Shown in pieces: positions 1,614 to 8,460 of a stretch of 8,460 nucleotides of DNA (within the stretch, counting starts at the first letter, position 1; every line of letters begins with the position of its first letter). The DNA is from Candidatus Methylomirabilota bacterium (GTDB taxonomy: Bacteria > Methylomirabilota > Methylomirabilia > Methylomirabilales > Methylomirabilaceae): assembly GCA_016200385.1 (NCBI GenBank), contig JACQEV010000111.1, positions 1 through 8,460 on the forward strand, given 5' to 3'. The notes beneath the pieces are model-generated. The model was not told the DNA's origin. It did not search any database and was given only the letters and a program-made list of their open reading frames with translations. The position numbers and the translations under genes are program-made.

Positions 1614-2102
1614 ATGAAAGCCTACCTTGACATCGAGACGTCATTCGACGGGAGCATTACCGTCGTCGGCCTGCATGCTGAAGATCGAGGCATGATCCAG
1701 TTGGTCGGAGGGAAGATCAACGACCTCGCGCTCTGCAGCGCACTGGAGGGGGTGAAGACGATCTGCACGTATAACGGCAGTCGCTTCGATCTGCCGGTGA
1801 TCCGCAGGCGACTGGGGCTCGACCTGGCGAAGGAATTCCGATCCCACGATCTGATGTACGATTGCTGGCGTCATGGCCTGTTCGGCGGGCTGAAGCGAGT
1901 CGAGGAACAGCTTGGTATCTCTCGGCGTTCCAAGGGGATCGATGGCTTCGACGCCATGCGACTGTGGTCCCGATTCGAAGACGGTGGCGACGAGGAGGCG
2001 CTCGAGGTGCTCCTCACCTACAACCGGGACGATGTCTTGAACCTGCCGGTTCTCGAAGCACATCTCTCTGAGCTCGAGGCGAGATATGCGCGTCGCGATT
2101 AA
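1614..2102 (+). CDS. DEDDy 3'-5' exonuclease, YprB / RNase H-like family
   Basis: A stand-alone 162-residue exonuclease domain of the RNase H-like YprB type, expected to trim DNA or RNA 3' ends with two metal ions. The acidic motifs are visible: Exo I YLDIET (Asp6, Glu8), Exo II YNGSRFDLPVI (Asp59) and Exo III YNRDDV (Tyr136, Asp140), the Tyr marking the DEDDy subtype. SHDLMYDCW (77-85) and the GGLKRVE segment (91-97) are typical of this group. Length and order look complete. No ribosome binding site precedes the ATG; it may be translated from a nearly leaderless transcript. Its last 17 bases overlap the start of the methylthiotransferase gene, implying translational coupling and perhaps a link to RNA metabolism. 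The nucleic acid it acts on is unknown. Confidence 0.82.
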   Translation: MKAYLDIETSFDGSITVVGLHAEDRGMIQLVGGKINDLALCSALEGVKTICTYNGSRFDLPVIRRRLGLDLAKEFRSHDLMYDCWRHGLFGGLKRVEEQLGISRRSKGIDGFDAMRLWSRFEDGGDEEALEVLLTYNRDDVLNLPVLEAHLSELEARYARRD

Positions 2103-3333
2103 GACGTTGGGGTGCCGCCAGAACCAGTATGAGAGCGATGCCTTGCAAGAGGCGCTGCGTGGTGACGGGCACATCGTGGTCAGTCCCGATGAAGAGGCCG
2201 ACCTCTTTGTCATCAATACCTGCACCGTGACGAAGGAGGCCGACGCCGATTCGAGACAGATGATCCGGCGGGCAGTCCGGCGCAACCCGTCAGCCCGTGT
2301 AGTCGTCACTGGCTGTTACGCCCAGGTTGCGCCCAGGGAGATCGGAGTGATCCCGGGCGTCGATCTGATCGCGGGCAACGCCGAGAAGGCACGACTTCCC
2401 AAGATGATCCAGGGCCTCGGGGAGAAAGGCCCGCCCCTGATCGCGGTCAGCGATATCCAGCAGGCGAGGACCTTCGAGCCCCTTCCGCCGCCAGTTGGGG
2501 CCTCTCGAAGCCGGGCGTTTCTCAAGGTCCAGGACGGCTGTAACTACCGCTGCACTTTCTGTATCATCCCCGAGACCCGCGGACCCAACCGGAGCCAGCC
2601 GAGGGCAGCCGCGCTGGGTGACTTGAAGGCCCTTGTGGACGCCGGGTATCCGGAAGTCGTCCTGACCGGGATCCACCTGGGAACGTATGGCCGCGATCTG
2701 CCGATTCGAAGTTCAATCGCAGCATTGGTCGCGGAGATGCTGGAGGTGGCCGCGCCAGCGAGGATCCGTCTGAGCTCGCTTGACCCGCATGAGGTGAAGG
2801 AGGATTTGATCGGCCTCTTCGACCGCTTCGGGAATCTTTGTCGGCACCTGCACCTGCCGCTGCAGAGTGGCGTCCCGGGGATCGCCATAGGGACCGATGT
2901 CATCGTCGGATTTCCTGGCGAGAGGGAGGCGGAGTTCGAGAACACCCACCGGCTCCTCGAGCGCCTGCCTATCGCTTATCTCCATGTCTTCAGCTACTCG
3001 CAGCGCGAGGGAACTGTCGCGGCGTCATTGCCGGACCAGGTTCCCAAGGCTGTAAGGGCGGCGCGGAGCTTCGCCCTCCGATCGTTGAGTGAAAGGAAAT
3101 GGCATGAGTTTCGAAGTTCACAGGTCGGGCAGCCACTCACGGCTGTCGTCCTCGACAGGCGGGATGCGCGGAGGAGACGGCTTGATGCGCTGACTGACAA
3201 CTATATTACGGTTGCCCTCGATTCTGCTGAAGGGTTCGGTGGTCGCGTGGTCGATCTCACCATCGAGTCCGTGACCGAACGGCAGACGCTTGGTCGATTG
3301 AGTTCGCTGGAGGGAAAATGGTCGAGGGCCTGA
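2086..3333 (+). CDS. mtaB: tRNA (t6A37) methylthiotransferase MtaB-type, with an apparent internal deletion
   Basis: A radical-SAM methylthiotransferase of the MiaB/RimO/MtaB family, expected to convert t6A37 to ms2t6A in ANN-decoding tRNAs. The N-terminal UPF0004 domain has its three cluster cysteines: Cys10 (LGCRQNQYESD), Cys46 (NTCTVT) and Cys77 (TGCYAQ). The radical-SAM CxxxCxxC is Cys152, Cys156, Cys159 in DGCNYRCTFC, followed by PETRGPNRS, TGIHLGTYG and RLSSLDPHEV. The C-terminus resembles a TRAM domain (LTDNYITV). TLGCRQNQYESD and CxxxCxxC favour MtaB over MiaB. Oddity: HLHLPLQSG (to Gly262) runs directly into VPGIAIGTDVIVGFPGE, whereas relatives have about 27 residues here (the S-D-x-V-L-x-x-M-x-R-x-Y-T segment). 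At 415 residues the protein is short accordingly. The gene overlaps both neighbours (17 and 16 nt). Family call firm; activity of this form doubtful. Confidence 0.85.
   Translation: MRVAIKTLGCRQNQYESDALQEALRGDGHIVVSPDEEADLFVINTCTVTKEADADSRQMIRRAVRRNPSARVVVTGCYAQVAPREIGVIPGVDLIAGNAEKARLPKMIQGLGEKGPPLIAVSDIQQARTFEPLPPPVGASRSRAFLKVQDGCNYRCTFCIIPETRGPNRSQPRAAALGDLKALVDAGYPEVVLTGIHLGTYGRDLPIRSSIAALVAEMLEVAAPARIRLSSLDPHEVKEDLIGLFDRFGNLCRHLHLPLQSGVPGIAIGTDVIVGFPGEREAEFENTHRLLERLPIAYLHVFSYSQREGTVAASLPDQVPKAVRAARSFALRSLSERKWHEFRSSQVGQPLTAVVLDRRDARRRRLDALTDNYITVALDSAEGFGGRVVDLTIESVTERQTLGRLSSLEGKWSRA
3309..3314 (+). promoter_or_regulatory. Ribosome binding site of mtnP inside the end of mtaB
   Basis: GGAGGG lies three bases before the ATG at 3318, within the last codons of mtaB. 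It supports the overlapping start and translational coupling. Confidence 0.6.
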
Positions 3334-4184
3334 TCGGTATCATCGGCGGGAGTGGGCTCTACGAGATGGAGGGCCTCGAGTCGATCGAGGAGCGGCGGGT
3401 CGAAACACCCTTTGGGTCGCCGTCGGACGCCTACATTACAGGACTCCTGAAAGGGCGACGGGTGGCGTTTCTGCCGCGGCATGGACGGGGTCACCGCCTG
3501 ATGCCATCGGAGCTGAACTATCGGGCGAATATCTTCGGGTTCAAACTGTTGGGGGCGGAGTGGGTCATCTCCGCCTCGGCGGTAGGCAGCATGAGGGAGG
3601 ACCTTCCTCCCCTGGACATTGTCATTCCTGATCAGTTCTTCGATCGGACGCGGGGGAGGCCCAGCACGTTCTTCGGTAACGGCCTCGTGGCCCACGTCAG
3701 CTTCGCTGACCCCACCTGCCCGGTCCTGGGGCACAGGTTATTTGCGGCCGGTCAGGCCGTCGGAGCCCGCATCCATCAGGGTGGAACGTACCTCTGCATC
3801 GAGGGGCCGCAGTTCTCGACCAGGGCCGAGTCTCGGATCTATCGAAGCTGGGGGGTGGATATCATCGGGATGACCAATCTGCAAGAGGCGAAACTCTGCC
3901 GGGAGGCAGAGATCTGCTATGCGACCCTGGCCTTAGTGACCGATTATGATGTCTGGCACGAGACGGAGGAGGATGTGTCTGTCGAAGCCGTCGTGGCGAT
4001 CCTGAAGCAGAACGCCGAAACGGCCAAGGCCATCATCAAGACCGCTGTGTCGTCGTTCACGATCGGCAGAGAAGACTGCGCGTGCTCCAGTGCGTTGAGG
4101 GATGCTGTCATCACCGCTCGCAACGCAATCCCTCCAGACGTCCGGGAACGGCTGCGACCGATCATCGGGAAGTATGTCAAATAA
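3318..4184 (+). CDS. mtnP: S-methyl-5'-thioadenosine phosphorylase
   Basis: A 288-residue purine nucleoside phosphorylase-fold enzyme (PNP/MTAP family 2). It cleaves methylthioadenosine with phosphate to adenine and methylthioribose-1-phosphate; family members often also accept 5'-deoxyadenosine. Seen in order: GIIGGSGLYE (7-16, phosphate loop), LPRHGRGH (52-59), SASAVGSM (85-92), PDQFFDRTRGRPSTFF (104-119), IEGPQFSTRAES (161-172), IGMTNLQEAKL (183-193) with Met185, and the base-recognition TDYD (Asp209, Asp211). The two Asp indicate 6-aminopurine preference, as in MTAP rather than guanosine-type PNP. A CAC pair (Cys254, Cys256) matches the CxC seen near the C-terminus of many of these enzymes. 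Length is normal and nothing is missing. Its start overlaps the end of mtaB by 16 nt; a hairpin repeat begins at its stop codon. Confidence 0.93.
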   Translation: MVEGLIGIIGGSGLYEMEGLESIEERRVETPFGSPSDAYITGLLKGRRVAFLPRHGRGHRLMPSELNYRANIFGFKLLGAEWVISASAVGSMREDLPPLDIVIPDQFFDRTRGRPSTFFGNGLVAHVSFADPTCPVLGHRLFAAGQAVGARIHQGGTYLCIEGPQFSTRAESRIYRSWGVDIIGMTNLQEAKLCREAEICYATLALVTDYDVWHETEEDVSVEAVVAILKQNAETAKAIIKTAVSSFTIGREDCACSSALRDAVITARNAIPPDVRERLRPIIGKYVK

Positions 4185-4268
4185 CGTTTCGAGTTTCGAG
4201 TTGCGGGTTTCGAGTTGAAGGGAAGTGTCCCTTAACTAACACGAAACGCGAGACCCGAAACTCGAAAC
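4184..4268. repeat. GTTTCGAG-type imperfect inverted repeat, copy 1
   Basis: The left arm is built of GTTTCGAG-like units (from 4186) and the right arm ends with the complement (CTCGAAAC at 4261-4268). The arms of roughly 40 bases pair imperfectly and close on a perfect AAGGGA / TCCCTT stem (4218-4223, 4228-4233) with loop AGTG. It begins at the last base of the mtnP stop and ends 12 bases before the kinase ATG. The RNA would fold into a long hairpin in either direction. With no T-run it is a REP-like element or attenuator rather than a classical terminator. A related copy starts at 8363. Structure seen; function inferred. Confidence 0.75.
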
Positions 4269-4280
4269 TGCGGAGCGGAC

Positions 4281-5189
4281 ATGAGTATCCTGGTCGTCGG
4301 ATCGGTCGCGCTCGACTCCGTGCAGACCCCCTTCGGTAGTGCGAAGGAGGTGCTTGGGGGGTCCGCCACGTACTTCTCGGCGGCGGCCAGCTTCTTTGCC
4401 GATGTCCGGGTTGTGGCCGTGGTGGGGGACGACTTCCCGGAGGAGCACCTCGCATTCCTGAAGCGCAGGTCGATCGACCTTCAGGGTCTGCAGAGAGTGC
4501 CCGGGCGGACCTTCCGGTGGGCAGGCGAGTACGGATTCGATCTGAATGATGCCCGAACGCTCGAGACCCAGCTCAATGTGTTTGCCGAGTTCCGACCCGA
4601 GATCCCGGAGGCGTACAAAGAGAGCGAACTGGTCTTCCTCGGGAACATCGACCCGGATCTGCAGCGACAGGTTCTCCGGCAGGTGCGCTCGCCGAAGCTG
4701 GTGGCGGCCGATACGATGAACTTCTGGATCGACCGTAAGCTCGAGGCGCTCCGAGAGACCTTGAAGTCAGTGGATGTCCTCCTGATCAACGACGCCGAGA
4801 CCCGTCAGCTCGCCGGGGAGCCGAACCTGGTCCGGGCGGCCCGGAAGATCCTCGACTGGGGGCCGACCTCGCTGGTGATCAAGCGGGGGGAATATGGCGC
4901 GTTGATGGTCCGCGAAGACGGTTGGTTTGCGGCCCCGGGCATCCCACTTGATTCGGTATTTGACCCGACAGGAGCCGGGGACTGCTTTGCCGGCGGCTTC
5001 ATCGGGTATCTCGCCAACACGATGAATTTCGAGGACGCCAACATCCGGAAGGCGATCGTGATGGGATCAGTGATGGCCTCTTTTAACGTCGAGGCCTTTT
5101 CGCTTGATCGCCTGCGACGACTCACCTATCCCGAAATCGAGGCGAGGTACAAAGCGTTTAAGCGCCTGGCCCAGTTCGAAGACCTCTAA
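4281..5189 (+). CDS. PfkB-family (ribokinase-like) carbohydrate or nucleoside kinase
   Basis: A 302-residue ATP-dependent kinase of the PfkB/ribokinase fold. Hallmarks: the N-terminal MSILVVGSVALDSV strand, signature 1 around GGSATYFSAAASFF (26-39), VVGDDF (47-52), the NDAE Mg-site motif (Asn170, Glu173), VIKRGEYGAL (199-208), and signature 2 DPTGAGDCFAGGF (228-240) with the anion-hole GAGD and catalytic base Asp234. Length is normal and the protein looks intact. The substrate cannot be read from sequence. Lying downstream of the methylthioadenosine phosphorylase, it may phosphorylate a sugar or nucleoside from that pathway, but the classical methylthioribose kinase MtnK belongs to another fold, so this is inference only. 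The ATG at 4281 has GGAG at 4272-4275, directly after the hairpin repeat. The repeat may tune its expression relative to mtnP. Confidence 0.88.
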   Translation: MSILVVGSVALDSVQTPFGSAKEVLGGSATYFSAAASFFADVRVVAVVGDDFPEEHLAFLKRRSIDLQGLQRVPGRTFRWAGEYGFDLNDARTLETQLNVFAEFRPEIPEAYKESELVFLGNIDPDLQRQVLRQVRSPKLVAADTMNFWIDRKLEALRETLKSVDVLLINDAETRQLAGEPNLVRAARKILDWGPTSLVIKRGEYGALMVREDGWFAAPGIPLDSVFDPTGAGDCFAGGFIGYLANTMNFEDANIRKAIVMGSVMASFNVEAFSLDRLRRLTYPEIEARYKAFKRLAQFEDL

Positions 5190-5317
5190 GTGGTCTCGAA
5201 TGCCATGTATCTTTTTCGGTTGTCACTGCGCTGAGCTTCGTGGTAAGGTCGGCGAGCGTTCGCCATGTCGGTTCCGTATCAGTCGGTCTTCGTTATCCAA
5301 GCCCACACTGCCCAGAA

Positions 5318-5409
5318 AATCCCCCTCCCCTTTGTAAGGGGAGGCCGGGTGGGGTAGATCCGAAGCCACTCTACCTCCCCTGGCCCCCCCCTTATAAAGG
5401 AGGGGAACC
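5318..5409. repeat. C/G-rich inverted repeat made of two hairpins (REP/MITE-like)
   Basis: The left half has a perfect 9-bp stem, CCTCCCCTT (5324-5332) with AAGGGGAGG (5336-5344), around loop TGT. The right half has a 9-bp stem with one mismatch (5385-5393 with 5397-5405) around ATA. The halves are also mirror images: GGTAGA (5353-5358) pairs TCTACC (5370-5375), and the reverse complement of the right half aligns along the left half with small gaps. This is the build of a short non-coding interspersed element. It has no ORF, and it does not resemble the GTTTCGAG-type repeat elsewhere in this window. Confidence 0.72.
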
Positions 5410-5451
5410 AGGACGGCAGATGACAACGTAATCGAGGTTGGCTTACCGCGC

Positions 5452-5460
5452 TGCTATGAA
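5452..5460 (+). promoter_or_regulatory. Weak candidate extended -10 for the carboxylase genes
   Basis: TGCTATGAA has a TGn extension followed by a -10-like TATGAA about 40 bases before the ATG at 5502. No properly spaced -35 is seen. It is the best candidate in this gap, but weak. Confidence 0.22.
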
Positions 5461-5490
5461 TCGCACTGCTCATGATAGATGAGATGAGAG

Positions 5491-5496
5491 GGGGAG
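5491..5496 (+). promoter_or_regulatory. Ribosome binding site that decides the carboxyltransferase start
   Basis: GGGGAG sits five bases before the ATG at 5502. In-frame ATGs at 5472 and 5484 lack such a site and would add residues unlike the family, so 5502 is chosen. Confidence 0.7.
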
Positions 5497-5501
5497 AAGG
5501 T

Positions 5502-6953
5502 ATGGCGGGAGAACGCCATAAGGACAGGCTGGAAGAGTTGCGCCGCCGGCGCGAGGCCGCCCTTCAGGGAGGCGGGAAAGACCGGATCGAGCGACAGCAC
5601 CAAGCGGGGAAGCTGACGGCGCGGGAACGGGTCGAGCTGCTCCTGGATAAAGGGAGCTTTACCGAGCTGGATGCCCTTGTGACCCATCAGTGCTACGACT
5701 TCGACATGGATCGGCAGCGCGTCCCAGGGGACGGGGTCGTGATCGGATGCGGGGCGATCGATGGGCGACAGGTCTACATCTTCGCCCAGGATTTCACCGT
5801 CTTCGGCGGGAGCCTGAGCGGTGCCCACGCCGCCAAAATCTGCAAGGTGATGGAGCTGGCCCTCAAGATGGGCGCCCCTATCATCGGCCTGAACGACTCA
5901 GGTGGAGCCCGGATACAGGAAGGGGTTGTCTCGTTGGCCGGCTATGCCGACATCTTCCTGCGAAACACGCTGGCTTCAGGGGTTATCCCGCAGATCGCGG
6001 CCATCATGGGGCCGTGCGCTGGGGGCGCGGTCTATTCCCCTGCGCTGATGGACTTCGTCTTCATGGTGCGACACACTAGCCACATGTTCGTCACGGGCCC
6101 TGATGTGATCAAGACCGTCCTCCATGAGGAGGTCAGTTTCGAGGAGCTCGGCGGTGCCATGACCCACAACGCCTCCTCTGGGGTGGCCCACTTCGCCGCC
6201 GAGTCCGAGGAGGAGTGTCTTGCGTCGATCAGGGAGCTCCTTTCATATCTGCCTCAGAACAATCTGGAAGATCCGCCCCGGCGCGAGACCCGGGACTTCT
6301 TTGAGGTTCAGGAACATTTTGCCCAGAACATCGTCGTCGGCTTCGCTCGGCTGGACGGCTACTCGGTCGGGTTTGTGGCTAACCAGCCTGCCATGCTGGC
6401 GGGCTGTCTGGACATCGGGTCCTCCATCAAGGCGGCCCGCTTCATCCGTTTTTGCGATGCGTTCAACATCCCCATCATCACCCTGGAGGATGTCCCGGGT
6501 TACCTTCCGGGCACTGCCCAGGAGCTGGGCGGAATTATCAAGCATGGCGCAAAGCTCCTGTACGCCTATGGCGAGGCAACTGTGCCCAAGATCACCGTCA
6601 TCACCCGAAAGGCCTACGGGGGCGCCTACTGTGTGATGGGCAGCAAGCACATGCGGGCGGACGTCAACTTTGCCTATCCGACGGCCGAAATCGCCGTGAT
6701 GGGACCAGAGGGAGCCGTTAATATCCTCTATAAGCGAAAGATTGCCGACGAAGCAGATGCAGCCTTCCGCGAGGAAAAGGTTGCGGAGTTCAGGGATAAG
6801 TTTGCTAATCCCTACATCGCTGCGGAACGAGGGTACATCGACGATGTGATCGAGCCGCAGGAAACTCGCCCCAAGCTGATTAAGGCGCTTCGGTCGCTTC
6901 GGACCAAGCGCGAGACGAATCCGCCGAAGAAACACGGTAACATCCCGCTCTAG
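5502..6953 (+). CDS. Acyl-CoA carboxylase carboxyltransferase (beta) subunit, with an apparent internal deletion
   Basis: The biotin-dependent carboxyltransferase of an acyl-CoA carboxylase (PccB / methylmalonyl-CoA carboxyltransferase family), which moves CO2 from carboxybiotin to acetyl- or propionyl-CoA. Seen: [13 protein letters not shown] (37-49), [13 protein letters not shown] (94-106), [13 protein letters not shown] (129-141), the N-half oxyanion region [11 protein letters not shown] (170-180), [11 protein letters not shown] (331-341), [14 protein letters not shown] (370-383) and the usual end [10 protein letters not shown]. Cys377 occupies the GGAY-x-VM position, linked in actinobacterial enzymes to acetyl- versus propionyl-CoA choice (Asp or Ile there), so substrate stays open. 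Oddity: [11 protein letters not shown] (253-263) runs straight into [10 protein letters not shown], omitting about 35-38 residues including the conserved VPD-x-P-x-KPYD-x-x-x-VI segment. The 483 residues compare with about 515 normally. Family call firm; function of this shortened form uncertain. Confidence 0.88.
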
Positions 6954-6989
6954 GACGAGGGCGCCGATCGAGCCGCCCTCCATGTAAGG
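6954..6989 (+). other. In-frame remnant of the biotin carboxylase N-terminus directly after the upstream stop
   Basis: The 36 bases between the carboxyltransferase TAG and the apparent biotin carboxylase ATG contain no stop in the biotin carboxylase frame and translate to DEGADRAALHVR. This continues into MADEAYLIG exactly as in the family, where a ...ADR-x-x-x-HV-x-x-ADE stretch lies around residues 35-47 of E. coli AccC. These bases are therefore former coding sequence, not a spacer. The preceding N-terminal strand with its ANRGEIA motif, the true start codon and any original gap are absent. Confidence 0.75.
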
Positions 6990-8360
6990 ATGGCCGATGA
7001 GGCGTACTTGATCGGCCCCGCTCCTTCCGCCCAGAGCTATCTGAAGGTTGACCGGATCATCGACACTGCGAGAACGGCAGGTGCGGAGGCCATCCATCCG
7101 GGATACGGTTTTCTATCCGAGAACCCCGAGTTCGCCCTGCGGTGCGAGCAAGAGGGGCTCGTCTTCATCGGGCCCACATCTCAGGCGATCCGAGCGATGG
7201 GGGGCAAGACCGCCGCTCGAAGCCTGGCAACCCATGCTGGCGTGCCAGTTGTTCCGGGAACGACCCGTGACCTGACTGATGAAGAGGTGCTCCAAGTTGC
7301 CACAGAGATGGGCTTTCCGGTGCTCATCAAGGCCTCTGCGGGCGGGGGCGGCAAAGGGATGCGTAGTGTCTCGGCCGAGGCTGAACTCGCGGGCGCTATC
7401 CGTGCTGCTCGCTCCGAGGCGACTTCTGCCTTCGGCAACCCTGCCGTCTACGTAGAGCGGTATCTGGATTGCGCTCGCCACATCGAGATGCAGATTCTTG
7501 CCGATAAGGCAGGCAATGTGGTGTATCTCGGGGAACGCGAATGCTCGCTCCAGCGGCGTCACCAGAAGGTGGTCGAAGAGTCGCCGTCGCCCTTCGTCGA
7601 TGCTGATCTGAGGCGTCGGATTGGGGAGGCGGCCGTCAAGCTGGCCAAGGCTGCGAGCTATACCAATGCTGGCACGCTGGAGTTCTTGGTCGATTCGGCC
7701 AAGAACTTTTATTTCCTGGAGTTGAATGCGCGCCTGCAGGTGGAGCACCCGGTCACCGAGATGGTGACGGGACTTGACCTCGTGAAGGAGCAGATCCGGA
7801 TCGCGGCGGGCGAGCCCCTCTCCGTGCGACAGGAAGAGATCCAGTTGCGCGGGCATGCTATCGAGTGCCGTATCTATGCGGAGGACCCTTTTAACAACTT
7901 CATGCCCTCGCCAGGGCGAATTCAGGTGCTGCGTAATCCGTCCGGCCCAGGCATCAGGATCGACAGCGGCATCTACGAGGGGTGCGAGGTCCCACTCTAC
8001 TACGATCCCATCGTGGCGAAACTGATCGCGTGGGGACAGGATAGGAGCGAGGCGATCGGGAGGATGCGGCGAGCCCTGCGTGAATATGCGATCATCGGAG
8101 TGAAGACCAGCATCCCGTTCCACCATCGAATCCTTGACCATCCGCAGTTTCAGAAAGGCGAGTTCCACACACAATTTCTTGAGAGATGGCTGGCCGAAGG
8201 ATTCAAGGAGGAGAGCGGAAGGCTGGCTGAGATCGCGTTGGTTGCGGGCGCGCTCTATCTCCATACCAGGAAGCCGCCTTCCCCCGTATCTGTCTCGCAG
8301 GCTGCCCGGTCCGAAAGCCTCTGGAAGCTAGCCGCCCGGCACGAGGCATTACGCCGATAG
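6990..8360 (+). CDS. accC: Biotin carboxylase subunit of an acyl-CoA carboxylase, N-terminus missing
   Basis: An ATP-grasp enzyme that carboxylates protein-bound biotin using bicarbonate and ATP. Seen from the ATG at 6990: AIHPGYGFLSENPEFA (34-49), the ATP glycine loop KASAGGGGKGM (114-124), LGERECSLQRRHQK (180-193), the metal and catalytic stretch FLELNARLQVEHPVTE (242-257), GHAIECRIYAEDP (288-300) and the Arg expected for catalysis in GIRIDSG (Arg323). There is no biotin-attachment MKM motif or BCCP domain, so a separate carrier is needed. The C-terminus ends normally for a single-domain subunit (ARHEALRR). The N-terminus is wrong: relative to E. coli AccC about 43 residues are absent, including ANRGEIA; 12 more are encoded in frame upstream. 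The ATG's AAGG abuts it with no spacing and encodes Val-Arg in the family, so it is probably not a true start. Possibly non-functional or misassembled. Confidence 0.85.
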   Translation: MADEAYLIGPAPSAQSYLKVDRIIDTARTAGAEAIHPGYGFLSENPEFALRCEQEGLVFIGPTSQAIRAMGGKTAARSLATHAGVPVVPGTTRDLTDEEVLQVATEMGFPVLIKASAGGGGKGMRSVSAEAELAGAIRAARSEATSAFGNPAVYVERYLDCARHIEMQILADKAGNVVYLGERECSLQRRHQKVVEESPSPFVDADLRRRIGEAAVKLAKAASYTNAGTLEFLVDSAKNFYFLELNARLQVEHPVTEMVTGLDLVKEQIRIAAGEPLSVRQEEIQLRGHAIECRIYAEDPFNNFMPSPGRIQVLRNPSGPGIRIDSGIYEGCEVPLYYDPIVAKLIAWGQDRSEAIGRMRRALREYAIIGVKTSIPFHHRILDHPQFQKGEFHTQFLERWLAEGFKEESGRLAEIALVAGALYLHTRKPPSPVSVSQAARSESLWKLAARHEALRR

Positions 8361-8362
8361 TG

Positions 8363-8460
8363 ACGTTTCGAGCTCCGAGTTCCGAGTTGGCAACGCGCTC
8401 GATGAAACTTTAAATCTGGAAGCTCGGAACCCTGAGATCGTTAACTCGAAACCCGAAACT
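8363..8460. repeat. GTTTCGAG-type inverted repeat, copy 2 (runs off the window)
   Basis: It starts two bases after the biotin carboxylase stop with ACGTTTCGAG, the same ten bases that open copy 1 at 4184-4193, and continues with CGAGTT-type units. The right side carries complementary units (AACTCGAAACCCGAAACT at 8443-8460) that run to the window edge, so the true end is not visible. The interior is more diverged than in copy 1. As with copy 1 it lies at a gene's 3' end, suggesting a REP-like element tolerated or used at transcript ends. Confidence 0.68.

Follow-up and report, generated by a model that had tools for sequence, protein, structure and literature searches.

Why do three conserved genes on one short contig each lack a stretch of sequence that their relatives carry? 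The contig, C272 of the draft metagenome assembly G000 (2,214,058 bases, 411 contigs, 81.32% complete), is analysed here in its entire length of 8,460 bases, which we call the window, and its named relatives belong to Candidatus (Ca.) Methylomirabilis of candidate division NC10. The window contains genes for an RNase H-like protein, the methylthiotransferase MtaB, an S-methyl-5'-thioadenosine (MTA) phosphorylase, a PfkB-family kinase, and the carboxyltransferase and biotin carboxylase subunits of an acyl-CoA carboxylase. A first-pass annotation had described three losses of similar size, in mtaB and the two carboxylase genes, and had offered two explanations for them, an assembly error or selection or recombination favouring in-frame deletions. 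Our comparisons with related genomes suggest that the three losses are most likely errors of a low-quality draft metagenome assembly and not the outcome of a biological process.

Three losses in mtaB and the acyl-CoA carboxylase genes

The window was compared with 14 other genomes of the genus Ca. Methylomirabilis, one of which (G005) is complete in one contig, and nearest protein relatives were sought in a database of 5.8 billion proteins. These relatives (P0002, P0122, and P0241) are full-length proteins and are 94.2, 95.0, and 94.8% identical, respectively, to the window proteins outside the gaps. The affected genes and their junctions are as follows.

2086..3333, + strand: mtaB, tRNA threonylcarbamoyladenosine methylthiotransferase, 415 residues against the usual ~442 (TIGR01579, alignment with relatives)
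2871..2872, + strand: mtaB junction, 81 bp (27 codons) gone (DNA alignment, 13 congeners)
5472..6953, + strand: acyl-CoA carboxylase carboxyltransferase (beta) subunit gene, 35 + 1 codons shorter than in relatives (PF01039, alignment)
6296..6297, + strand: carboxyltransferase junction, 105 bp (35 codons) gone (DNA alignment, 13 congeners)
6758..6759, + strand: additional single-codon gap in the carboxyltransferase gene (protein alignment, seven relatives)
6954..6962, + strand: junction zone from the carboxyltransferase stop to the biotin carboxylase remainder; start, first 32 codons, and some intergenic sequence gone
6963..8360, + strand: biotin carboxylase remainder without its start, first remaining ATG at 6990 (PF00289, alignment)

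The gap in mtaB is exactly 81 bp against each of the 13 congeners aligned as DNA, and in the 14th, G012, which was not DNA-aligned, the match coordinates leave room for the 81-bp segment. The loss removes 27 residues after MtaB residue 262 and breaks the chain of the radical SAM region relative to that of relatives, and the TIGR01579 profile matches in two stretches with 365.5 bits (cut-off 357.05). When a full-length MtaB relative is used as the query, the best solved chain, 7mjv, spans the missing stretch. We also note a congener MtaB of 274 residues (P0052), encoded on a 9,694-base contig, which terminates within the stretch that the window mtaB is without.

The carboxyltransferase gap is exactly 105 bp against each of 13 of the 14 congeners, G011 being left out since only the C-terminal part of the gene is seen there. 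PF01039 (Carboxyl_trans) matches the window protein in two stretches with 616.5 bits (cut-off 22.3), between which 35 residues are gone and the chain is not continuous; the TIGR01117 match falls under its cut-off. The solved 3n6r chain B spans the missing stretch when a full-length carboxyltransferase relative is the query. For biotin carboxylase we used the families PF00289, PF02786, and PF02785. The PF00289 match starts only at profile position 35 of 110, leaving an incomplete N-terminal domain with no start codon, and the protein alignment indicates that the start codon and the first 32 residues are gone. With the full-length relative as the query, the solved 9eb7 spans this stretch as well. 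A few bases at 6954..6962 fit neither side of the congener sequence well, and the net loss, intergenic part included, is 121-218 bp against 12 congeners (G010 was left out for a contig edge and G012 because the gene was not found), a range that arises because the intergenic part differs among congeners.

Every congener readable at each of the three points carries the missing stretch, and the losses reported by the first-pass annotation are thus borne out. Their similarity in size holds loosely, with 81 and 105 bp against a net 121-218 bp. The statement that no frameshift was left stands for the two internal losses and does not apply to biotin carboxylase, because there the gene start itself is removed. 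The idea that the segments are optional in the family does not fit the relatives seen, which, P0052 apart, keep all three: the nearest relatives are full-length, and the best solved chains align through the segments.

Outside the junctions, the three genes are indeed well kept, as had been claimed. At columns invariant in 11 chosen relatives, changes seen only in the window number 4 in mtaB, 1 in carboxyltransferase, and 1 in biotin carboxylase, against 3, 4, and 2 changes of the nearest relative's own. The remainder of the genes therefore shows the same level of conservation as that of an intact close relative, with no long-standing decay, and we rejected the possibility that they are old pseudogenes, since changes at conserved sites are not raised. 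The lesions are either very recent or absent from the DNA of the cell.

Broken genes elsewhere in the same assembly

The first-pass annotation had proposed that other conserved genes of the assembly be scanned for similar gaps. We surveyed 430,801 bases of G000 (76 contigs, some partial; 19% of the assembly) against open frames from 1.2 Mb of G005, keeping matches with at least 65% identity over at least 80 residues. A loss was counted from 10 residues upward, and a stop only if it lay 12 residues or more inside either end of the match. The survey gave 85 loci with 27,421 aligned residues, of which three were set aside (one with a longer open frame on the opposite strand and two ambiguous). 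Beyond the three window genes, six conserved genes of G000 are broken, including two further large losses that both shift the frame. The genes are named after their G005 counterparts.

Lesion 1, C140: 149-bp frame-shifting loss in a CusA/CzcA-type efflux gene
Lesion 2, C340: 151-bp frame-shifting loss in a gene with nucleotidyltransferase, hexapeptide, and phosphomutase domains
Lesion 3, C299: 2-bp frameshift in a branched-chain amino acid binding protein-like gene
Lesion 4, C92: TGA stop in carB
Lesion 5, C92: TAG stop in an O-methyltransferase-family gene
Lesion 6, C35: TAA stop in a DEAD-box helicase gene

Each gene was then checked in 15 genomes of the genus, the congeners including G005, the source of the queries. 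The efflux gene is one full-length open frame in 9 congeners, and two partial copies are also unbroken. The C340 gene is unbroken at full length in 10 congeners; the same is true of carB in 11, and a partial copy in a twelfth is also unbroken. The methyltransferase gene is stop-free in 10 congeners and one short piece and holds a stop in G000. The binding-protein gene is present in 14 genomes; G000 is the only one where it falls into two frames, the other 13 each giving one match. The helicase match is stop-free in 9 near-complete congener copies and one partial copy. The earlier claim that there are no frameshifts or stops therefore holds for C272 and fails for the rest of G000, where both occur in conserved genes.

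Some differences were handled separately. Biotin carboxylase registers in the survey as a stop, which is that of the carboxyltransferase, and its lost start rests on the protein alignment. The filters kept out a G000 locus of 56% identity with several stops, another G000 locus with a stop at its residue 5, and, in the congener G006, a gene of 62% identity that has lost 48 bp and two stops, each lying near the start of a match. Three other genes lack 9 residues and a linker on C110 lacks 11, which we took as natural. A 379-residue "loss" on C110 reflects differing insert sites in vitamin B12-dependent ribonucleotide reductase and was counted as a sound locus. The inserts look intein-like in both genomes (L118 on the minus strand of C110 in G000, L237:16339-19995 in G005), lying before the SGGGTGF segment in G000 and before CGEQPLGPNDACNLG in G005; the G005 insert matches a LAGLIDADG domain and, below the cut-off, an intein splicing domain, and the G000 insert was judged from its sequence. 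Further single stops occur in weaker matches on C377 and C96 of G000, and efflux-pump paralogues with one internal stop are found at G000:C377:5413-8556 (TAA) and G006:C9:2440-5538 (TGA).

As a control, the same procedure was applied to 13 congener genomes and gave 0 lesions in 126 loci with 42,836 residues. Of these loci, 94 are mostly window-region genes in other genomes; the remaining 32 were drawn from G006, three longer stretches of it included. We took one G006 difference, of -163, to be a pair of genes that G005 has as a single fused frame, and did not count it as a lesion. Lesion-bearing genes thus number 9 of 82 in G000 against 0 of 126 in the control (p = 0.00017), and 6 of 76 against 0 of 126 outside C272 (p = 0.0025). 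Under the least favourable count, with the G006 difference as a lesion and the three set-aside loci as sound, p = 0.014 outside C272.

The four internal losses of G000 (81, 105, 149, and 151 bp) keep the frame in two cases, and at a chance of one third each the probability of at least two of four in frame is 0.41. Frame-keeping therefore needs no selection, and the first-pass argument from frame conservation falls. The argument bears directly on the view that selection, or a deletion mechanism favouring in-frame losses of 80-120 bp, produced shortened, working proteins. Both internal window losses are multiples of three with open frames, as this view would have it, yet the other two large losses of G000 (149 and 151 bp) are out of frame, conserved genes of G000 also hold stops and a 2-bp frameshift, biotin carboxylase has no start, and congeners readable at these points keep the segments, through which 7mjv, 3n6r chain B, and 9eb7 align. 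We consider this view barely credible. It is just as hard to believe that a Ca. Methylomirabilis (NC10) lineage truly bears a shortened, working MtaB and acyl-CoA carboxylase that arose by in-frame losses in the radical SAM barrel and between the carboxyltransferase halves.

Probable assembly error and the rival explanations

Frame-breaking gaps and stops in other genes of the same draft make assembly errors the most likely source of the losses. Sequence ends flanking short, badly sequenced stretches may have been fused directly, leaving out what lay in between, and such joins would have been bridged by read pairs or chimeric reads. Loss sizes of 81 to ~200 bp would suit holes shorter than a read-pair fragment, and the two frame-keeping losses would be due to chance. 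The lesions are likely not in the DNA of the cell.

The junctions themselves bear on how such errors could arise. The first-pass annotation had proposed a look for microhomology there; judged by eye, the junctions share ~1 base in mtaB and ~3 bases in carboxyltransferase. So few shared bases would hardly let a repeat collapse in the assembly graph, and we rejected repeat collapse. The first-pass suggestion of an assembly error survives in outline, with lesions in and out of frame in the draft, but not in its form of a drop between short repeats. Odd base composition of the lost stretches was likewise rejected. Their G+C contents (66.7% in mtaB, 61.0% in carboxyltransferase, 57.1% in biotin carboxylase, 61.2% in C140, and 55.3% in C340) are not unusual against those of the whole genes in G005 (63.2, 60.2, 60.1, 60.3, and 59.3%, respectively). 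An artefact of another origin is conceivable, in which chimeric reads, reads derived from polymerase chain reaction, or joins of strain variants at low depth made the short versions. Short shared sequence at two junctions, ~3 bp in carboxyltransferase and an imperfect repeat of ~7 bp at the C340 loss (against G005, by eye), is consistent with it, but the mtaB junction shares only its single base, and the evidence here does not separate bridged gaps, chimeric reads, and strain joins. We regard it as very improbable.

The lesions could instead be real and very recent, in a lineage in early gene decay such as a declining or mutator population. Several kinds of lesion, in and out of frame, on several contigs would agree with this, as would the result of looking for further copies of the three window genes in the 81% complete assembly, where the nearest match found is a biotin carboxylase relative at 60% identity. 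However, the lesions strike housekeeping genes such as carB, as well as mtaB and both carboxylase subunits, the window genes are without relaxed conservation, and apart from the one gene-fusion difference the control loci of 13 congeners hold none. The lesions fall in housekeeping genes and are scattered across different contigs of a fragmented draft; error is on this account likelier than recent decay, which we consider unlikely.

Several observations weigh against assembly error. The 76 G000 contigs read contain no N to mark a gap, which also speaks for early decay. The five losses of at least 81 bp sit in 3 of the 76 contigs, with three in C272, and a more even spread would be expected from a uniform error rate; this argument is tempered by the selection of C272 because of its losses. 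Against the 32 G006 loci alone, the excess of lesions is not significant (p = 0.06 overall, 0.18 outside C272), and the genome-wide control is small, as its broad part is one genome. Missing read support at the junctions is itself surmised. In addition, lesions 3 and 6 are the least secure, because congener matches also hold stops at places that were not seen: the binding-protein matches in G003:C21:41970-43145 and G004:C82:86421-87608, and, with one TAG each, the helicase matches in G007:C164:17628-18848 and G014:C127:17694-18914. The binding-protein stops in G003 and G004 may precede the true start, as several congener matches begin only at residues 15-30.

Neighbouring genes and comparison with known systems

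The other genes of the conserved block showed no loss when compared.

1614..2102, + strand: RNase H-like gene, no loss (profile search, G005 comparison)
3318..4184, + strand: S-methyl-5'-thioadenosine phosphorylase, no loss (TIGR01694)
4281..5189, + strand: PfkB-family kinase, no loss (PF00294)

The gene order from the RNase H gene onward is the same in G005 and G006, and the G005 stretch around the conserved block matches the window only from 1572 onward. Upstream of the block, positions 89-1036 on the minus strand hold what we take, from its sequence, to be an alpha/beta-hydrolase-like gene. Repeats built on TTTCGAGTTTC / GAAACCCGAAA occur in both orientations in the intergenic regions at 4184-4281 and 8360-8460, and the contig ends within one of them. 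In the other whole contigs of G000 (279 kb) the four repeat motifs are found 6 times, and in 1.2 Mb of G005 twice; only 1 of 96 other contig ends has a motif within 200 bases. A second type of element, with C-rich and G-rich arms as judged by eye, lies between the kinase and carboxyltransferase genes at 5310-5410.

Taken together, the losses are likely not a real biological feature. When a single contig shows three gaps of the same kind and two keep the frame, they resemble biology until the rest of the assembly is examined, and metabolic calls from G000, for example that it has no working acyl-CoA carboxylase or MtaB, are untrustworthy without the reads.

Published accounts describe similar errors. 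Local assembly errors in uncurated metagenome assemblies feed incomplete genes into databases (Chen et al. 2020, PMC7111523). G000 resembles the drafts described there in its many small contigs and its incomplete or incorrect protein-coding genes, and differs in that the criterion given there is missing read support, whereas our case rests on sequence comparison. Spurious stops and frameshifts track low coverage and the choice of assembler, according to Cooley and Wright (2024, PMC11017572). The lesions in G000 are like the spurious pseudogenes of that study in being internal stops and frameshifts in conserved draft genes that are intact in relatives; the neighbour genomes there share at least 99.9% nucleotide identity, and the nearest relatives here ~94-95% in protein. 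The closest known counterparts are MtaB, the acyl-CoA carboxylase beta subunit, and biotin carboxylase of Ca. Methylomirabilis, which the window genes match in gene order and in sequence outside the junctions, and from which they differ in being short by 27, 35 + 1, and 32 residues, respectively.

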